A DNA stretch of 58,045 nucleotides, taken from NCBI RefSeq assembly GCF_018139625.1, contig NZ_JAGSOH010000036.1, positions 1 to 58,045 of the forward strand, read 5' to 3'. Shown in pieces: positions 26,036 through 38,697 of the stretch. The notes below the pieces were generated by a model. It was not told the origin of the DNA. It did no database searches and saw only the letters and a list, made by a program, of their open reading frames with translations. Made by a program: the position numbers and the translations under genes. Numbering within the stretch: position 1 is the stretch's first letter; each line of letters begins with the position of its first letter. The DNA is from Actinospica acidithermotolerans (GTDB lineage: Bacteria; Actinomycetota; Actinomycetes; Streptomycetales; Catenulisporaceae).

Positions 26036-28015
26036 GTGTTCGAGAGCTGGCTCGGCGCCCAGATGGGCCGGGACCCGGGCTGCACGGCGTGCGCCCGGCA
26101 CGCCGAGGGCGCGGAGGCGGCGGCGCAGCGGCACGACGAGCAGGCGCTGGAGCTCTGGGAGCCGGTCCTCGCCGGGGACCTGGTCTGCGACCACCAGCCG
26201 CACGGCGTCTACGGTTCCGCGCTGATGGTGCTCGTGCGCCAGGACCGGCTCGACGACGCGATCCACTACCACCGCCACGGCTACCGCATCGCGCGCCGCA
26301 AGCCCAGGTTCCGCGCCGCGATCGGCGAGCACCTGGAGTTCTGCGCGCTGGCCGGCCCCGAGCACCGCGGCCTCGAACTGCTCGCCGAGCACGCCGACTG
26401 GCTCACCGAGCCCGCGCCGGGCCACGCCGCGCAGGCCGAGTTCCTGACCGGCGCGAGCGTGCTGCTGGCCCGGCTCGTCGCGCTCGGGCACGCGGAGCTG
26501 CCGGTGCCGATGCCGCCCTCGCCGGGCGCGCACATGCCGACCGGCGAGGAGCTGACCGTGGGCGTGCTGCGCGGCTTCGTGGACGCCGAGCTGGATTCGC
26601 TGGCCGCGCGCATCGGGCGCGCCGAGCTGGAGGCCGGGCGCGAGCCGCACTACGCTGCGCGGCTGCGGATGCGCCGGCTGCGGCAGCACTCGCTGGCCCC
26701 GTTCGACCTGGCGACGCGCAGCACCATCCGCGAGCCGTCGCACGAGCCGCCTCCGTACGCCGAGCCGGCCGCCGCGCACCTCGAGGTCCCCGGCATGGAG
26801 GACCTGTACGCGCTGACCGACATGCTCTACCAGGCCGGCGAGATGGAGGAGGTCGGCCCGGCGCTGCGCCAGGTGATCGACCGCTCGGTGGCGGCCAAGG
26901 CGCCGTGGTACGCGGCGCGCGCGGAGATGAACCTCTCCCGGCTGGTCGGCGCCGAGGGCGACAAGGCCGCGGCGGTGCGGTACGCGCGGGCCGCGGTGAT
27001 GGACTGCGTGGACACCCGGCTGCGCGGCGCGGCGGCGCTGACCTTGGCGAACGCGCTGTGGGAGCTGGACGGCCGGGAGGCGGAGGCGATCCTGCCCGCC
27101 CTCGAGTCGGCGAGCATGTACGCGGCGGAGGACCGGAACGCCGAGGCGGCGATGGCCCGCCTGCAGGGCGCCGACGCGCTGGCGTACGTCGGGCGGCGCA
27201 GCGGCGCGGTCGCCCTCTACCAGCGCTCGTTCGCAGAGCTCGATGACGACGAGTACTGGCATCCGCACAGCCAGGGCCGCGAGCTGGCCAACCACTCGCT
27301 CCAGTACGCGCGTGCGCTGCTGCAGTCCGGCGAGGAGGCGGAGGGCCTCGCCGTGCTCGACCGGCTCGGCCGCCGGATCGCGGCGTGGGAGGACGGCGAA
27401 GGCCGCTTCGAGGTCACCGTCAACACCGCCTACACGCTGCGGGACTGCGATCAGGAGCAGCCGGCGTACGAGGCGTTCCTGCGGGCCGCCGACCTGGCCG
27501 AGGGTGATCCGGACCGGCTGCGCACCCGGGTGCGCTGCCTGCGCTCGGCGGCCTGGCTGATCGAGGGCGGCGACCGGCGGCGGGCGGTCGAGCTGATGGA
27601 CCTGGCCGGCTCGGCGCTGGTCCTGCGGCTGAACGACGAGCCTGAGCCGAACCGCGGCGAGCTGCGGATCGAGCTGGCCGAGACGCACCTGCAGCGCGCC
27701 GAGCTCACCCGCGACCGGCAGCGGCACGCGTTGCAGGACGCGGCCGCCGCGTACGCCGGGCTGCGCCAGGGCATGGAGCTCCGGTTCGCTCAGGACGGCT
27801 CGCGGCCGTTCGGGCTCCACCGGCGGCTGGCCGACGCGGCGCTGCTGCTCGGCGAGCTGGAGGCGGCCCGCTCGGGCTCGCCGCGCTCGGCCGTCGAGCG
27901 GCTGCGGGCGCTGGCGCGGGAGCTGGAGGCGGCGGGCGGCGAGGGCTTCGCCGAGATCGTCAAGGATCTGACGGTCCGGATCGACGGGTTCGAACCGGGC
28001 GACGGGAGGGCGTGA
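26036..28015 (+). CDS. Large TPR-repeat protein, first of a paralogous pair
   Basis: 659 residues of almost entirely alpha-helical repeats of the TPR/SEL1 kind, for example LWEPVLAGDLVC, YHRHGYRIARRKPRFRAAIG and AALTLANALWELDGREAEA. The N-terminus carries a possible metal site, C-x2-C-x2-H (residues about 20-26), followed by CDHQPH near 49. No enzyme domain, signal peptide or membrane segment is seen, so a cytoplasmic scaffold or regulator is likely. The start is GTG at 26036 with GGGAGG 9 bases upstream. It is followed by the larger paralogue after a 4-base gap, so they form an operon. Family unknown. Confidence 0.8.
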   Translation: MFESWLGAQMGRDPGCTACARHAEGAEAAAQRHDEQALELWEPVLAGDLVCDHQPHGVYGSALMVLVRQDRLDDAIHYHRHGYRIARRKPRFRAAIGEHLEFCALAGPEHRGLELLAEHADWLTEPAPGHAAQAEFLTGASVLLARLVALGHAELPVPMPPSPGAHMPTGEELTVGVLRGFVDAELDSLAARIGRAELEAGREPHYAARLRMRRLRQHSLAPFDLATRSTIREPSHEPPPYAEPAAAHLEVPGMEDLYALTDMLYQAGEMEEVGPALRQVIDRSVAAKAPWYAARAEMNLSRLVGAEGDKAAAVRYARAAVMDCVDTRLRGAAALTLANALWELDGREAEAILPALESASMYAAEDRNAEAAMARLQGADALAYVGRRSGAVALYQRSFAELDDDEYWHPHSQGRELANHSLQYARALLQSGEEAEGLAVLDRLGRRIAAWEDGEGRFEVTVNTAYTLRDCDQEQPAYEAFLRAADLAEGDPDRLRTRVRCLRSAAWLIEGGDRRRAVELMDLAGSALVLRLNDEPEPNRGELRIELAETHLQRAELTRDRQRHALQDAAAAYAGLRQGMELRFAQDGSRPFGLHRRLADAALLLGELEAARSGSPRSAVERLRALARELEAAGGEGFAEIVKDLTVRIDGFEPGDGRA

Positions 28016-28019
28016 GGTG

Positions 28020-31000
28020 ATGTCGACGACGCGGCTCGAGGTGCTCAAGGAGCGCTTCGACGAGCTCGACGAGCTGCCCTACGGGCCCGAGCGGATCGCC
28101 GGCCACCACGCCCTGCTCGCGGCCGCGGAGACCGCCGGCGACCCGTCGTTCCACGTCAAGGTGCTGGTCTGGATCTCCGACGACTACATGGAGACCGGCG
28201 ACCAGCCCCGCATGATCGAGTTCTTCGACAAGGCGTGGGAGCGGTTCCTCGCGGACGAGGACGACATCGACCCGTACGTGCGCTTCAACCTGCGCACGAC
28301 CTTCGGCCCGACGCTCAGCGCACTGGCCGCGGACCCGGACGTGCCGGACCGCGAGGTGCTGGTCCGGTTCAACGTGATGGAGGCGTTCTACCGGAAGTAC
28401 GGCTACAGCCTGCGCGCCGTCTACCGGTCCCGCTTCTTCTACCACCGGCGGCGCGGCGAGAACGACCTGGCGACCGAGCAGGTCGAGCTGCTGGTCGAGG
28501 AGCCCGGCGACTACGGCGCCCGCTGCGACGCGAACGGGCCGATGATCGCGGCCCAGTGGTACCAGACCGGCGGCCAGGACCTCGAACGCGCGGCCGAGCT
28601 GTGGCGCTCGGTCCTGGACCTGGCCGACCAGCGCTGCGCCGAGGACCACCGGGCCGAGGCGCACGCGGAGCTGACGCACCTGGCCACGCGGCTCGGCCGG
28701 TACGCGCAAGCGCGGCTCAACCACCGCCTCGGCTACCCGCTCGTCCGCCGCGACACGAAGCAGTGGCGCTGCCTGGACCTGCACATGATCTACGCGGAGA
28801 AGGCGCGGGACGTCGTGGCGATGCTGCGCATCATCCACGACCACGTCGAGGTGCTCGACGCGCCGATGGACGACGACGTGTTCTGGTATCAGGGCCGTGT
28901 CCTGCAGTTCCTGCACCTGCTCGTGGCGCGCGGGCACGGCCTGCTGCCGGTCACGCTGGCCGACCGCGGCGAGACCACCGTCGCCCGGCTGCGCGACCGG
29001 CTGGACGCCGGGCTCGGCGCGTACGTCGCCGCGGCCGCGAGCCCGGAGGCGCGCAAGGAGCTGGAGGAGCAGCTCGAGCCGTTCCGGGAGAGCATCCTGG
29101 ACAAGATCGACCTGCCGGAAGAGGAGGAGAACGACCCGTTCTGGGACTCCGTGCTGCCTCCGGTGCCCGCGCCGTGGGCCGCGCCGCCGAACCTCGAGGA
29201 CCTGCCCAAGGGCTGGTCGGCGCAGGACGCGCTGCTCGCCGAGGCGCGGGTGCTCGACTTCCTGGACCACCCGCACTCGGAGGGTGCGTGGGCCAGCGTC
29301 GCCGCGCTCGGCACGCCGCGCTCGCCGGCCGACCAGGCCCGGCTGGCCGGATACCGCGCGAACGTGCTGGTCAGGGACGGGGATTACGCGTCAGCCCGGA
29401 CGATGTGGCTGCGCGCCGCCGAGCTGTGGGAGCAGGCCGGGCGGCCGGCCCAGGGCATGTACAGCCGCGTGCTGGCGTCCATGTGCGCGTTCCTGACCGG
29501 GGACCGGGCGGCCGCGTTCGCCGAGCGGGACGCCGTGGTCGCGCACGCCCGGGCGGAGCACGCGGCGGGCCGGATGGAGGACGGCGAGCTGCTGCGGATC
29601 CTCGTCGAGGACTTCCGGCTGAACTCGACGACCGAGATCATGGCGTTCGGCGCGGACCCGAACCAGATCATGGACAACACCGAGACGAACGCGAAGTTCA
29701 GCGCGGCCAACGAGCTCTACCTCGACAAGTGCGTGGCGCACGCGCCGTGGGCGACGCTGCTCGACGCGTGGGGCTTCTACCGGCAGCAGATGAGCCGCCT
29801 GTACGCGCGCTACGGCCTGGAGCACGAGTTCGTGCGCTCGGCGACGCAGAAGGTCGACTTCTGGTACGCCAAGTCCCGGGACGCGTACCGCGACGCGCTG
29901 ATGTTCTTCGAGCAGGCCGAGCGCGAGGCGCGGCGCGGCGAGAACCTGCTGGACGCGGACCTGTTCGAGGACGCCGAACTCGCCGCGGTCGAGGCGATCC
30001 GGCTGAACGCGGGCCTCAACGCCAAGAACGTCGGCAGGTTCCGGCTGCTCCAGGCGCAGGCGATCCGCGAGCAGTTGGGCGCCGACACCGATCGCGACGA
30101 GGAGCTGCTCGCCGCGGCCCGAGAGGCCGCCGGGATGCTGGCCGCCGACGACGATGAGGGCGCCGCCGCCGCGCGTGCGCTGATCGGCGACGTGCACGTG
30201 CGCGCCGGGCGCTACGACGTGGCCCTGGCCGTCTACGAACCCGTGATCCGCGAGCTCGCCGGCGACGGGCCGGGCGGGGCCGGAGAGGCCGGCGGCGCGG
30301 CGACCGGCGTGGACGGCTGGTCCAGCCGCGACGCGCGCCGGGTGCTGCGCCGGGCCGTGGCGGGCAAGTTCGTCTGCCTGCGCCTGCTCGAGCGCTGCGA
30401 CGAGGCCGACGCGCTCATCGGGGACCTGCTCGCGAAGCTGCCGGAGTGGAACCGCGTCACGGTGGCGTGGATCTGGCACGACATCGGCCGCGCCTTCCAG
30501 TTCCTCGGCGACAGCCAGCAGGCCTTCGACGATTACAGCCAGGCGATCTACCTCGCGGACACGCTCGGCGCCTGGGAGCCGCACTTCGCCTCGCTGCTGC
30601 ACTCGGCCGAGTCGCTGGCCCCCACGACGCCGAAGTCCGCCATGACGATGCTCAACGAAGCCGTCGGCGTCATCGGTGCGGCCATCGAGAAGGAGCTCGC
30701 CCTCCTGGCCGAGCGGGAGGAGCGCTCCGCGCAGCACGCCGTCGCGCGCGGCGAGCCCGTCCCCGAGCGGGCGGCGCCGGTCGCCGACCCCGCGATGGTC
30801 GCCCGGCAGGCCCGCGCCAAGATCTTGCGCGTCGAGCTGCTGTTCGACCCGGAGCCCGCCGACGAGCAGATCCTCACCGAACTGCTTCCCGAGGCGTTCC
30901 GCGTGGCCGCGGAGGGGGCCGACACCCTCGCCCGGCTGATCCACGCCGCCGATCCGGCCGACCCCCGCCGCCGCCCGCTGCTCGCCGACCTGGAGGCCGC

Positions 31001-31226
31001 CACCGGGTGGCTCGTCGCCGTCCAGCGCGGCTCCGGCGACACCGCGGGTGCGGCCGCCCGCTGGGCCGCCCTCGCCGACCTGGCGACGGCGGCCGGGTTC
31101 GAGGACGTGGCCCGGCGGGCGACGGGGAAGGCGCAGGCGCTCACCGGCGGCATGAGCGCGGGCGCGGGTGCTCAGACCCCTGATCCGGTCCACGAGCTGG
31201 AGGCGGCGGTCGCCGCAGAGGCGTAG
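28020..31226 (+). CDS. Very large TPR-repeat protein, second of a paralogous pair
   Basis: 1068 residues, predicted wholly helical, with TPR-like units throughout. It shares the N-terminal module of the preceding protein: NHRLGYPLVRRDTKQWRCLD here matches HRHGYRIARRKPRFRAA there, and LVARGHGLLPVTL matches LVALGHAELPVPM. It then has extra repeats and a Glu-rich linker (LPEEEENDPFW near 365). Near the C-terminus an ordinary TPR is clear (WIWHDIGRAFQFLGDSQQAFDDYSQAIYL, in adjoining parts, about 820-848). ATG 28020 is chosen; GTG 28017 is possible. GGGAGGG lies upstream. No catalytic domain is seen. Function unknown. Confidence 0.8.
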   Translation: MSTTRLEVLKERFDELDELPYGPERIAGHHALLAAAETAGDPSFHVKVLVWISDDYMETGDQPRMIEFFDKAWERFLADEDDIDPYVRFNLRTTFGPTLSALAADPDVPDREVLVRFNVMEAFYRKYGYSLRAVYRSRFFYHRRRGENDLATEQVELLVEEPGDYGARCDANGPMIAAQWYQTGGQDLERAAELWRSVLDLADQRCAEDHRAEAHAELTHLATRLGRYAQARLNHRLGYPLVRRDTKQWRCLDLHMIYAEKARDVVAMLRIIHDHVEVLDAPMDDDVFWYQGRVLQFLHLLVARGHGLLPVTLADRGETTVARLRDRLDAGLGAYVAAAASPEARKELEEQLEPFRESILDKIDLPEEEENDPFWDSVLPPVPAPWAAPPNLEDLPKGWSAQDALLAEARVLDFLDHPHSEGAWASVAALGTPRSPADQARLAGYRANVLVRDGDYASARTMWLRAAELWEQAGRPAQGMYSRVLASMCAFLTGDRAAAFAERDAVVAHARAEHAAGRMEDGELLRILVEDFRLNSTTEIMAFGADPNQIMDNTETNAKFSAANELYLDKCVAHAPWATLLDAWGFYRQQMSRLYARYGLEHEFVRSATQKVDFWYAKSRDAYRDALMFFEQAEREARRGENLLDADLFEDAELAAVEAIRLNAGLNAKNVGRFRLLQAQAIREQLGADTDRDEELLAAAREAAGMLAADDDEGAAAARALIGDVHVRAGRYDVALAVYEPVIRELAGDGPGGAGEAGGAATGVDGWSSRDARRVLRRAVAGKFVCLRLLERCDEADALIGDLLAKLPEWNRVTVAWIWHDIGRAFQFLGDSQQAFDDYSQAIYLADTLGAWEPHFASLLHSAESLAPTTPKSAMTMLNEAVGVIGAAIEKELALLAEREERSAQHAVARGEPVPERAAPVADPAMVARQARAKILRVELLFDPEPADEQILTELLPEAFRVAAEGADTLARLIHAADPADPRRRPLLADLEAATGWLVAVQRGSGDTAGAAARWAALADLATAAGFEDVARRATGKAQALTGGMSAGAGAQTPDPVHELEAAVAAEA

Positions 31227-34938: not shown

Positions 34939-36510
34939 CTAGCCCAGCGCCCCCAAGATCGCCTTGTACGCGGCGCCGTAGTTCGTCGGGGTGCCGGTGT
35001 AGTCGGTGATCAGGGTCGGGCCGCTGGAGCAGCCGCCGGACCAGTCGTCCCAGGTCCAGGCGAGGAACCCGGTGTTCTCGCTCTCCAGCCAGCTGGTCAG
35101 CGAGTCGACGTACGAGCCGGCGCAGTCGTTCTCGCCGATCTCGCCCGGGACGACCGGCACCTTCGCGATCACCGGAGCGACCTGGGAGGTCCAGCAGGAC
35201 GAGTTGCTGCAGGTGTTGAAGTTGTACGAGTGCCACGAGGCCGCGAGGTTGCCGTCGGGGTCGGTGGGCTCGTACGCCAGCCAGTCGGTCAGGTCGTTCG
35301 AGTACTCCTCGCCGCCGAGCATCAGCACGTTGCTCGCGCCGGTGGAGCGGACGGCGTTGACCATCGACTGCATGCCCGCGACCTGGTAGCCGATGCCGTT
35401 GCAGGTCCCGCCGTTGAGCCAGCAGCTCCAGCCGGTGGTGGTGTCGCCGGTGGCACGCGAGGCGTAGGGCTCGTTGAAGAGGTCGAAGATCACCGCGTCG
35501 TTGCCCTTGAACGTCTGCGCGACCGACGTCCAGAACGGGATGGCCCCGGCCGCGTCGGGCATCGGCTTCTGGCAGGTCGCCTCGGCGGACGAGCAGCCCG
35601 AGGAGTTGCCGGTGTACGTGCCGTCGGTCCAGTGCAGGTCGAGGATCGCGACGATCCCGTTGGCGTTCAGCAGGTTGACGTAGTTCACGATCGCCTGCTG
35701 GTAGGTCGCGCCGGAGTAGGCCGAGTTCACGTACGACTCGCCGTTCCAGCAGGCCTCGTTCAGCGGCACGCGCACGGCGTTGACCGGGCCCCAGCTCTTC
35801 ATGGCCGTGATCGACGCCTGGTCGCTCGGGCCGTCGAAGATGCCGTAGCCCTGTACGCACTCGTACTCGGTGCCGGAGCGGTCCACGCCGTGCGGGATGA
35901 ACGTGTTGCCGCTCGCGTCCACCAGCTTGTTGCCCGAGACGTGCAATTGCGGCGCGACGGAGGAGGTGGTGCCGGTGCCGGTCGCCGTGGCGGTGGGTGA
36001 GGCGCTGGTGGTGGTCGCCGTCGCGGAGGCCGAGGCGGTGGCCGTCGCGGTGGCGGTCGGTGAGGCGCTGGCGCTGCCGGACGAGCTCGCGCCGCAGGCG
36101 ACGCCGTTGACGGCGAAGCCGGTGGGGATCGCGTCGCTGGTGGTCCAGGTGCCCTGGAAGCCGAAGTTCGTGCTCGATCCGGCCGCGATGTCGGCGTTGT
36201 AGGACGCCGCGACGGCGGTGACGTTCTCGCCGGACTGGGTCACCGTCGCGCTCCAGGCGTTGGTGACCTTCTGGTCGCCCGGGAACGTGAACGTGAGCGT
36301 CCAGCCGTTGATCGCCGAGCTGCCCGTGTTGCTGATCACCAGGTTCGCGACGAAACCGCCGGACCACTGGCTCTGCGTCGAGTACGCGACCGAGCAGCCC
36401 AGCGACGCGGCCGAGGCGGAGCTCAGCGTCATCGCCGGGACGAGCGTCGCGGCCGACGCGAGCGCGAGCGCTCCGGCGACCGCGAGCACGCGGGGTGGTG
36501 GGGAGATCAA
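34939..36510 (-). CDS. Secreted CBM2-GH5 endoglucanase
   Basis: 523 residues: signal peptide (about 1-35, cut near ASA-ASL), a cellulose-binding CBM2 (36-140, with Cys at both ends: LGCSVAYS and NGVACG), an Ala/Thr/Ser linker (140-180) and a GH5 catalytic domain. The acid/base is Glu347 in FDLFNEPY and the nucleophile is Glu457 in PGEIGEND. It would cut internal cellulose bonds outside the cell. The CBM2-coding DNA is identical over 279 bp to that of the divergent GH6 gene. Family and domains are clear; endo-action is inferred from GH5. Confidence 0.93.
   Translation of the reverse strand: MISPPPRVLAVAGALALASAATLVPAMTLSSASAASLGCSVAYSTQSQWSGGFVANLVISNTGSSAINGWTLTFTFPGDQKVTNAWSATVTQSGENVTAVAASYNADIAAGSSTNFGFQGTWTTSDAIPTGFAVNGVACGASSSGSASASPTATATATASASATATTTSASPTATATGTGTTSSVAPQLHVSGNKLVDASGNTFIPHGVDRSGTEYECVQGYGIFDGPSDQASITAMKSWGPVNAVRVPLNEACWNGESYVNSAYSGATYQQAIVNYVNLLNANGIVAILDLHWTDGTYTGNSSGCSSAEATCQKPMPDAAGAIPFWTSVAQTFKGNDAVIFDLFNEPYASRATGDTTTGWSCWLNGGTCNGIGYQVAGMQSMVNAVRSTGASNVLMLGGEEYSNDLTDWLAYEPTDPDGNLAASWHSYNFNTCSNSSCWTSQVAPVIAKVPVVPGEIGENDCAGSYVDSLTSWLESENTGFLAWTWDDWSGGCSSGPTLITDYTGTPTNYGAAYKAILGALG
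36090..36368 (-). repeat. Left arm of a perfect 279-bp inverted repeat (CBM2 of the GH5 gene)
   Basis: The reverse complement of this segment equals 36986-37264 at every base when compared line by line. It encodes most of the CBM2 module from the SGGF strand to the NGVACG end. The sequence diverges at both outer ends. Confidence 0.93.
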
Positions 36511-36810
36511 GGGAATCCTCCTGAGGTGTGCGGGTGCGGGTCAACCTAGGCGGGGCTCCCCGTGAGGAGAAGGAAACGGGGGCGGAGCAACCCTCTGATG
36601 CAGGCAGACGTGTCCGCCCGCCACTTACTTTCATTTCATGAGAGGCGGCCGCAGGGCTTTGACCTGCCCCCGAGCGCAGGAGTCGGTGGGCACCGGACGT
36701 TACCCGCTGGACACACACCCACCGGATTTCCTACCTACTGAGTTGCGTGCAGCAATGCGCGGCGACGCACCACCCACACTTCCTACCGCCTAAGGAAGAA
36801 GGCTGTTTCC
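36511..36810. promoter_or_regulatory. Divergent promoter region of the two cellulase genes
   Basis: This 300-base gap serves both genes. A ribosome binding site AGGAGG for the GH5 gene is visible at its left end (read on the minus strand), and GGAAG lies before the GH6 start. CTTTCAT-TTC-ATGAGAG near 36629-36645 is a near-palindrome that could bind a regulator. The Streptomyces CebR-type box TGGGAGCGCTCCCA is absent. No clear -10/-35 pair was assigned. Confidence 0.45.
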
Positions 36811-38697
36811 ATGCAACCCACCCCTACGTCCGCTCCCCCGCCCCGAACGCGGGCGCGGCGGCGGATCTGGCTCGCGATCTCCGCGTCCGTGAGCCTGGCC
36901 GCAGCGACGACGCTCACGCCGGCGCTGCTGAACTCGGCCTCGGCCGCGTCCCTCGGCTGCTCGGTGAGCTACACCAACCAGAGCGAGTGGTCCGGCGGTT
37001 TCGTCGCGAACCTGGTGATCAGCAACACGGGCAGCTCGGCGATCAACGGCTGGACGCTCACGTTCACGTTCCCGGGCGACCAGAAGGTCACCAACGCCTG
37101 GAGCGCGACGGTGACCCAGTCCGGCGAGAACGTCACCGCCGTCGCGGCGTCCTACAACGCCGACATCGCGGCCGGATCGAGCACGAACTTCGGCTTCCAG
37201 GGCACCTGGACCACCAGCGACGCGATCCCCACCGGCTTCGCCGTCAACGGCGTCGCCTGCGGCGGGTCGAGTTCGACGGGCAGCGCGAGCGCGTCGCCCA
37301 CCACCGCCTCGGCCTCCGCTACGGCCACCGCCTCGGCCTCGGCCACGGCGACCACCACCAGCGCCTCGCCGACGGCCACCGCGACCGGCACCGGCACCGG
37401 CACCGGCGGCACGGGCGGCTACCCGGCGCACGTCGCCGACCCGTTCACCGGCGCCACGCGGTATCTGAACCCTGACTACGTCGCCGAGGTGAACGCGCAG
37501 GCCGCCGCGGACGGCAACAACGCCGCCGAGGCCTCCGTCGCGCAGTACCAGACCGCGATCTGGCTGGACCAGATCAGCCGGATCGCCGGCGACAGCACGC
37601 ACACCAGCCTGACGACGGAGCTGAACGACGCCGCCGCCACCGCGACGGCCGCCAACCCGAAGGTCGTCGAACTGGTCATCTACGACCTGCCAGGCCGCGA
37701 CTGCGCCGCCCTCGCCTCCAACGGCGAGATCCCGGCGACGGCAGCCGGACTGACCGAGTACGAGTCGCAGTACATCGACCCGATCGCCTCGATCCTGAAC
37801 AACACCGCGTACGAGAACCTGCGGATCGTCGCGATCATCGAGCCGGACTCGCTCCCGAACGCGGTCACCAACCAGAGCAAGACCGCCTGCGCCACGGCCA
37901 CCCCGTACTACGAGTCGGGTATCACGTACGCGCTGAACAAGCTGCACGCGATCCCGAACGTGTACAACTACCTGGACATCGCGCACTCGGCGTGGCTCGG
38001 CTGGCCGAGCAACATGAGCGCCACCCCGGCCGTGTACCAGAAGGTCGTGCTCGGCACGACCGCCGGCTACGCGAGCATCGACGGCTTCATCAGCGACACG
38101 GCGAACTACACGCCGGTCCAGGAGCCGTTCCTGACCAACCCGACCCTCTCGGTCGGCGGCCAGCCGGTCGACTCGGCGACGTTCTACCAGTACAACCCGA
38201 CCTTCGACGAGCTGACGTACGACACGGACATGTACAACACGCTCGTCGCGGCCGGGTTCCCGGCGAGCGACAAGTTCCTGATCGACACCTCGCGCGACGG
38301 CTGGGGCGGCCCGGGCCGGCCGACCGCGCTCAACAGCTCGCCGACCACCGCGGACACGTACGTGGCCGCGAACAAGATCGACGAGCGTCCGTTCCGCGGC
38401 GACTGGTGCAACCAGAACAACGCGGGCATCGGCGCGCGCCCGACGGACGAGCCCTTCGGCACCAGCAGCCCGATCGAGGCATATGTGTGGATCAAGCCGC
38501 CCGGCGAGTCGGACGGCGACTACCCCACCAGCACGCACACCCACGGCGATCCGCACTGCGACCCGAGCGGCACCAACACCGACGGCAACGGCGGCACGTA
38601 CTCGACGGGTTCGATCCCGGGATACGACGTCCCGGCGGGCCAGTGGTACGCGTACGAGTTCCAGATGCTCGTCTCGAACGCCTACCCGGCGCTGTAA
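36811..38697 (+). CDS. Secreted CBM2-GH6 cellulase (cellobiohydrolase/endoglucanase)
   Basis: 628 residues: a Tat- or Sec-like signal peptide with Arg-rich n-region (RTRARRRIW, cut near residue 46), CBM2 (about 47-150), an Ala/Thr/Ser linker (150-205) and a GH6 domain. Key acids are Asp297 in YDLPGRDC (proton donor) and Asp346 in IIEPDSLP. The long loops before the C-terminus (GDYPTSTHTHGDPHC) suggest a tunnel-type exoenzyme. It converges on the 2OG oxygenase through a strong terminator. The Arg pair near the n-region may be a Tat signal, but no clear SRRxFLK motif is present. Confidence 0.93.
   Translation: MQPTPTSAPPPRTRARRRIWLAISASVSLAAATTLTPALLNSASAASLGCSVSYTNQSEWSGGFVANLVISNTGSSAINGWTLTFTFPGDQKVTNAWSATVTQSGENVTAVAASYNADIAAGSSTNFGFQGTWTTSDAIPTGFAVNGVACGGSSSTGSASASPTTASASATATASASATATTTSASPTATATGTGTGTGGTGGYPAHVADPFTGATRYLNPDYVAEVNAQAAADGNNAAEASVAQYQTAIWLDQISRIAGDSTHTSLTTELNDAAATATAANPKVVELVIYDLPGRDCAALASNGEIPATAAGLTEYESQYIDPIASILNNTAYENLRIVAIIEPDSLPNAVTNQSKTACATATPYYESGITYALNKLHAIPNVYNYLDIAHSAWLGWPSNMSATPAVYQKVVLGTTAGYASIDGFISDTANYTPVQEPFLTNPTLSVGGQPVDSATFYQYNPTFDELTYDTDMYNTLVAAGFPASDKFLIDTSRDGWGGPGRPTALNSSPTTADTYVAANKIDERPFRGDWCNQNNAGIGARPTDEPFGTSSPIEAYVWIKPPGESDGDYPTSTHTHGDPHCDPSGTNTDGNGGTYSTGSIPGYDVPAGQWYAYEFQMLVSNAYPAL
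36986..37264 (+). repeat. Right arm of a perfect 279-bp inverted repeat (CBM2 of the GH6 gene)
   Basis: Matches 36090-36368 in inverted orientation. The 617-bp core between the arms (36369-36985) holds both start codons, both signal peptides and the whole intergenic promoter region. Confidence 0.93.

Follow-up and report, generated by a model that had tools for sequence, protein, structure and literature searches.

In eukaryotes, the chaperone Hsp90 is served by co-chaperones built on tetratricopeptide repeats (TPRs), such as Hop/Stip1, FKBP51/52 and PP5, which bind the EEVD tail of Hsp90. Bacteria are described as having no Hop orthologue in one published account (PMC7688965). The subject of this analysis is a pair of adjacent genes, P0001 and P0002, on a 58,045-nucleotide contig of Actinospica acidithermotolerans (NZ_JAGSOH010000036.1, the whole of which is referred to as the window). 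Profile and alignment evidence places their products, as diverged members, in a helical-protein family that has no name and whose representatives are usually the operon partners of a bacterial Hsp90 paralogue, PRK14083. No name for this family and no characterisation of it were found in the open-access literature searched. As with the eukaryotic co-chaperones, a TPR protein is here linked to Hsp90, but the EEVD tail is absent from 79 bacterial Hsp90s and no sequence relationship between the two groups has been shown.

Three other comparisons place the pair. A TPR protein of Streptomyces globosus (WP_114059341.1, 'hypothetical protein'), encoded behind an Hsp90 (WP_114059342.1), is homologous over most of its length, shares its C-terminal TPR part with the pair and carries a motif of three cysteines, of which P0001 has all and P0002 two. 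In contrast to this arrangement, the window pair has no adjacent Hsp90, consists of two genes instead of one and has no FDxRN motif, while P0001 is shortened and P0002 has one cysteine fewer. Stand-alone proteins of Listeria and Paenibacillus are homologous to the N-terminal module, with two tandem copies in Listeria; unlike the pair, they are only 320-353 amino acids long, have an Hsp90 present and keep FDxRN. Finally, of the solved chains used for comparison, the superhelix of LGN/Pins (GPSM2) comes closest to the C-terminal part of each protein, although the likeness concerns the fold alone (LGN/Pins rows have 10-14% identity) and the biology is different.

Both genes lie on the forward strand. 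P0001 (26036..28015, GTG start) encodes a 659-residue, N-terminally shortened family homologue, and P0002 (28020..31226, ATG start) a long but strongly diverged homologue of 1068 residues. Each assignment combines the open reading frame (ORF) with a profile match and a structural model, to which orthologues are added for P0001 and a Pfam match to TPR_12 for P0002 (E 1.9e-10). The GTG start of P0001 corresponds to M in both orthologues and is followed by a conserved stretch. A sequence-only reading of the window had described two paralogous TPR proteins of these lengths, separated by four bases in one operon. The ORF coordinates agree with the lengths and with the 4-base gap, a single transcription unit is likely, and the paralogy is borne out by direct BLASTP (29% over 207 amino acids, E 2e-5) and by an independent family profile that matches both. 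The H-R-x-G-Y and LVA-x-GH motifs that it had singled out near the N-termini do occur in both proteins, as variants of a wider family pattern. It had also proposed no enzymatic domain, and none was found in library scans. Pfam gave zero matches for P0001 at E up to 1, NCBIfam gave none for either protein and PADLOC models gave 0 families for either at E up to 1; across these three libraries no DNA-binding domain was found. A known defence system was considered and rejected, the pair having zero PADLOC matches. Chaperone-based systems are described in a survey of biological conflict systems (eLife 2020, PMC7159879), in the main text of which neither Hsp90 nor GHKL appears. Neither protein has a membrane-like stretch, the best 19-residue hydropathy being 1.36 and 1.18, respectively. 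The view that the pair has no recognisable function thus holds in that the scanned libraries contain no specific model, and gives way in that an unnamed Hsp90-linked family exists. Assignment by profile search to a characterised family was likewise reached in part, since the family found is tightly linked to Hsp90 but is named or characterised nowhere searched.

Membership of the family was assessed with a profile (A2) built from 20 sequences, the window pair being left out. Its members were gathered by Hsp90 adjacency or by similarity to P0001, and 19 of them lie beside an Hsp90, the other (L046) being at a contig edge. A2 matched P0001 with E 8.8e-77, covering profile positions 149-384 and 573-941, and P0002 with E 7.8e-54, covering 6-867. 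As the profile excludes the pair and still matches both proteins, the relationship is not a matter of chance. Homology extends over the N-terminal module and the C-terminal repeats in both; P0001 is shorter by about 150 residues at its N-terminus and has no counterpart to a stretch in the middle of the profile. Family TPR proteins of 652-1015 amino acids (gene calls) were present in all 14 genomes of the organism's taxonomic family. A first scan of the genome contigs with P0002 alone found no relative, and the canonical TPR partners that were scanned matched no specific Pfam or NCBIfam model.

The Hsp90 beside family members belongs to NCBIfam NF010683 (PRK14083, 'HSP90 family protein'), with E 6e-235 to 9e-260 in three examples, on all of which the HtpG model scores under its cut-off. 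In the regions fetched from the taxonomic family, the TPR gene lies directly behind the gene for the Hsp90-like ATPase. Across the 14 genomes, every Hsp90 place above the PRK14083 cut-off (24/24) had an adjacent homologue and, window-type pairs and the second piece of one gene (in G001) left out, 24 of 25 homologue places adjoined an Hsp90, the remaining one starting at a contig edge. Both genes stood together in 16 of 18 further regions picked by Hsp90 or TPR matches, the exceptions being L077, which is the divergent Hsp90 of the source genome, and L091. The class sample comprised 394 genomes, of which at least 46 yielded an Hsp90 (E up to 1e-80), at least 48 a member of the TPR family (E up to 1e-6) and at least 45 both, with Hsp90 only in 1 and TPR only in 3 (Fisher p 2e-54, relatedness ignored). 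These counts are lower bounds, because the class and order scans scored the best 3 or 5 first-look candidates per genome, and the identity of the 394 genomes in the Hsp90 and TPR scans is deduced from matching handles and numbers, the two scans leaving 328 and 326 genomes without a match. By place, 51 of the 54 Hsp90 matches in the class sample had a TPR match within 1.5 kb, and at one of the other three (G367) the Hsp90 is followed by a homologue that has diverged further. Similarly, when named genomes were scanned with the alignment of the family and one pattern around FDxRNG, at least 519 relatives were confirmed, of which the best 80 loci (78 titled Streptomyces) were used; 79 of these had Hsp90 directly upstream, with -12 to +42 bases between the end of its match and that of the TPR protein, and the exception was Streptomyces seoulensis (L152). 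On this genomic evidence, the PRK14083 Hsp90 seems to have in this family a partner dedicated to it.

The same two-gene unit was also seen on large Streptomyces replicons listed as plasmids (L199:5824-10794; L201:5881-10808). The position taken to correspond to Asn92 of yeast Hsp90 is Leu in 72/79 and Phe in 7/79 of the Hsp90s encoded at the named loci (L095-L174). Asn92 is linked to geldanamycin binding in a passage of one study (PMC3603443). A geldanamycin link is not claimed here, as the identity of the published S. hygroscopicus HtpG with the PRK14083 paralogue could not be shown.

The link with Hsp90 extends to the Bacillota records read, in which the partner consists of the N-terminal module alone. 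In Paenibacillus cellulosilyticus, the PRK14083 Hsp90 is followed by one protein of 353 amino acids (L200:5785-8666; profile 15-346, E 7.6e-71), and in Listeria monocytogenes by two tandem modules of 324 and 320 amino acids (L202:3791-7576; E 2.4e-55 and 5e-58). In these three proteins (P0005-P0007) the match to the profile is confined to its N-terminal third, and D-C-x2-C-E, the third cysteine and F-D-x-R-N are present in all of them. A protein search with the Paenibacillus module returned Listeria at E 6e-30 and Streptomyces at E 7e-19, while Pfam and NCBIfam scans of the modules gave generic TPR matches and no specific model. The Listeria proteins are annotated as hypothetical, as is that of S. 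globosus, and the Paenibacillus module is not listed; in strain EGD-e, the Listeria modules are presumably lmo0941 and lmo0940. The former is called a hypothetical protein of unknown function in a passage of one study (PMC6901971). Judging from the three Bacillota proteins, the conserved core of the Hsp90 link would lie in the N-terminal module, the TPR superhelix having been added in Actinomycetota. The module would then be the part that faces Hsp90, because it is the sole part found behind Hsp90 in the Bacillota examples. A diverged module also occurs on a Priestia megaterium plasmid (L204:3665-4843; E 4.8e-20 to the module profile); it lacks both the cysteine pair and FDxR, and the 8.5 kb of sequence there gave no match to Hsp90.

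Conservation within the module centres on three cysteines. In an alignment of 115 sequences (the 80 scanned loci, the 20 of A2, 8 from a further search and 7 more, six of which are the window pair and its orthologues), cysteines 1 and 3 were each present in 115/115 and cysteine 2 in 112/115, the three exceptions being P0002, where residue 172 is Asn, and its two orthologues. All three are retained in P0001, where family alignments and the 115-sequence counts place cysteines 1 and 2 at C16-x2-C19 (26081..26092) and the third at C51 (26186..26188). The sequence-only reading had confined the cysteine cluster to the smaller protein, which is wrong: by the alignment counts, P0002 keeps the first and third conserved cysteines as C169 (28524..28526) and C206 (28635..28637). 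A histidine at column 249 occurs in 114/115 aligned sequences, but a CCCH-type metal site was rejected, as by eye the Paenibacillus module and the second of the two Listeria modules do not have this histidine; on the alignments, only the three cysteines are claimed.

The FDxRN motif lies near the end of the N-terminal module and is replaced in all six window-type proteins, that is, P0001, P0002 and four orthologues. In P0002, the alignment, the motif table and the stand-alone modules place the module at about residues 1-356 (28020..29087), without FDxRN near its end. In the A2 sequences, D and R of the motif are invariant and N and G reach at least 90%, whereas counts from the 80 scanned loci are biased, the scan pattern itself having used FDxRNG. 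Loss of FDxRN was considered as a mark of Hsp90 loss and rejected, since 5/7 other Hsp90-less members keep the motif; as far as the alignments go, the loss is particular to the window pair and no general rule.

AlphaFold2 models made from 29-sequence alignments were almost wholly helical for both proteins, with a mean predicted local distance difference test score (pLDDT) of 87.4 for P0001 and 80.1 for P0002. VIA-align placed the C-terminal superhelix of P0001 (about residues 250-657; 26783..28006) on LGN chain 3sf4_C with Z 27.5 (3.9 Å over 327 residues) and the C-terminal TPR-like solenoid of P0002 (about residues 391-1044; 29190..31151) on LGN chain 4wng_A with Z 20.9 (2.4 Å over 312 residues), the VIA rows mainly spanning 247-657 and 391-1044, respectively. 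Both models thus have an LGN/Pins-like TPR superhelix, as a matter of fold only. Foldseek lists for both contain large TPR or solenoid scaffolds (Ski3, Ctr9, IFT-A, LGN), and among the 60 of 213 matches listed in a profile search of solved structures only the repeat part was matched. In LGN this fold binds extended peptides, and several of the matched entries are complexes of this kind.

Adjacent orthologues of both proteins were found in 3/3 genomes of the genus searched. A profile made from the N-terminal half of P0002 scored 1135.8-1200.5 bits in these genomes, which are the profile's own source; the order sample held 245 genomes, and in the remaining 242 its score did not exceed 118.6 bits. 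The P0001 orthologues scored 887 and 864 bits, the next match within the 14 genomes of the taxonomic family scored 114, and across the class sample of 394 genomes the top score, the window itself aside, was 137.5 bits. By these profile scores, the pair is restricted to one genus in the samples searched. Both frames are intact in the three species, and the ratio of nonsynonymous to synonymous substitution rates (dN/dS, simple counting) between the two closer species was 0.26 for P0001 and 0.35 for P0002. A genome search with P0001 found no further copy of the pair in the source genome (7.89 Mb, 422 contigs). The loci of the genus have in common a penicillin-binding protein, an FAH-type hydrolase, a SpoIIE-type phosphatase, a LacI regulator and cellulases, while a RibD_C-type gene behind P0002 (31258-31824) is found in the window only. 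In the window, the two divergently oriented cellulases (34939-38697) are of families GH5 and GH6, each with CBM2, and stand beside the LacI-type regulator. A second copy of the penicillin-binding protein lies elsewhere in the genome (G000:C59:9390-10895; 87% identity over 502 amino acids).

Six-frame translation (segments of at least 30 amino acids) gave no Hsp90 match, whether to a gene or to a remnant, in the whole window, nor any match in two further regions (L037, L038), and no Hsp90 lies directly upstream of the pair. By sequence, the pair is a relative of the family by descent and is not filed as an Hsp90 partner. The genus is not alone in this: the class sample contains five more homologue places without Hsp90 in the 17-20 kb fetched (G102, G384, G398, G108, G209:C4), and further Hsp90-less members occur in Streptomyces seoulensis (L152:9977-13144), where the TPR gene is kept and the surrounding 22.5 kb have no Hsp90 match, and in Actinomyces oris (L203). 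FDxRA occurs in two such members (L191 and L192, from G102 and G384). The family can therefore persist without an adjacent Hsp90. Side-by-side family genes were seen at none of the other Hsp90-less places read. A YbjN-type gene lies directly upstream in L193:8532-10609 (PF10722, E 2.5e-26) and, by likeness, in L194:8969-11019; in A. oris a gene annotated as YbjN-type is two genes upstream (L203:2319-7036). A YbjN-type gene may thus stand in the place of Hsp90. The source genome itself has one canonical Hsp90-TPR operon, with a PRK14083-type Hsp90 (G000:C367). It also encodes a divergent Hsp90-like protein of 860 amino acids with an extra C-terminal part (G000:C9; L077:10209-13156), followed by a 120-amino-acid ORF that looks by eye like a TPR fragment and has no Pfam match.

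From the operon link, the motif conservation and the predicted fold, we infer that the family acts as a co-chaperone-like, client-binding adaptor of the PRK14083 Hsp90: the N-terminal module would meet Hsp90 and the TPR superhelix would hold a client or peptide. Such an adaptor would work without the eukaryotic EEVD rule, because none of the 79 Hsp90s has that tail. The window pair may, less certainly, have arisen from such adaptors by duplication or recruitment, then lost its own Hsp90, and might now form a cytoplasmic two-subunit scaffold that binds peptides or clients, either independently of Hsp90 or sharing the Hsp90 of G000:C367 or G000:C9 in trans. That the pair is a two-subunit client- or peptide-binding scaffold derived from Hsp90 adaptors appears somewhat more likely than not. 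More tentative, with the balance tipping slightly against it, is the full picture of a bacterial Hsp90 adaptor family that runs from the module alone in Bacillota to module plus superhelix in Actinomycetota and has given this genus a two-gene client scaffold freed from Hsp90.

Several observations weigh against this interpretation. Gene proximity is no proof of a complex, EEVD was absent from the last 12 residues of all 79 Hsp90s of the named loci, and no family member was found beside the Hsp90 at G162 or G000:C9. FDxRN, a candidate Hsp90 contact, is still present in five of the seven Hsp90-less members outside the genus (L152, L193, L194, L195 and L203), and its loss does not simply track that of Hsp90. 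In a tree of the shared module, both proteins sit on long branches, with support too weak to date the split or to decide for or against a tandem-duplication origin of the pair. In addition, dN/dS against the window species was 0.57-0.81, a range that simple counting makes unreliable at this GC content and that leaves room for relaxed constraint, above all in P0002.

Service to an Hsp90 in trans, at G000:C367 or the 860-residue G000:C9, with delivery of a separate client set, would fit a genome that retains both a canonical Hsp90-TPR operon and a divergent Hsp90-like gene with only a 120-amino-acid ORF behind it, and the three-cysteine core of P0001 is intact. It is nevertheless unlikely, given that both proteins have lost FDxRN, of which D and R never vary across the 20-sequence reference set, and that a counterpart of C9 was not seen in the other two genus genomes holding the pair. 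A role as peptide- or ligand-sensing regulators, like Rap, NprR or the TPR part of AfsR, is improbable: Rap proteins and NprR are among the structural matches (Z 15.6-19.1) and AfsR is among the sequence matches of the family's TPR part, but such matches are common to many TPR superhelices, and the library scans found no DNA-binding domain.

Slightly less probable still is that the two proteins are relics stranded after Hsp90 loss and drifting without a fixed function. The recurrence of Hsp90-less members and the fast divergence of P0002 speak for drift, whereas two long, intact, adjacent frames in three species, with dN/dS of 0.26-0.35 between the closer two, speak against it. The shared envelope role with the MecA-like penicillin-binding protein that the sequence-only reading envisaged is very improbable and goes unsupported beyond synteny within the genus. 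The divergent neighbour is present in 3/3 genus genomes (with one 171-amino-acid gene between it and the first TPR gene in G002), yet conservation in these genomes extends to the rest of the flanking genes, and no association was observed beyond the genus. The nearest outside homologue of the penicillin-binding protein (G001, 49% identity) is on a different contig from that genome's TPR homologue, and neither TPR protein has a membrane-like stretch.

Overall, the two proteins are best regarded as a variant, specific to one lineage, of a broad Hsp90-linked family that has no name, and it is the family that constitutes the more interesting discovery, with the pair useful as its natural variant. 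If one Hsp90 paralogue has an adaptor-like protein tied to it in two phyla, this protein would offer a partner for pull-down experiments and a route to the clients of that chaperone. The pair has altered features that are kept in nearly all relatives seen, namely FDxRN and the second cysteine, and setting it beside the canonical partners, and beside those Hsp90-less members in which FDxRN is retained, would make the roles of this motif and this cysteine testable.

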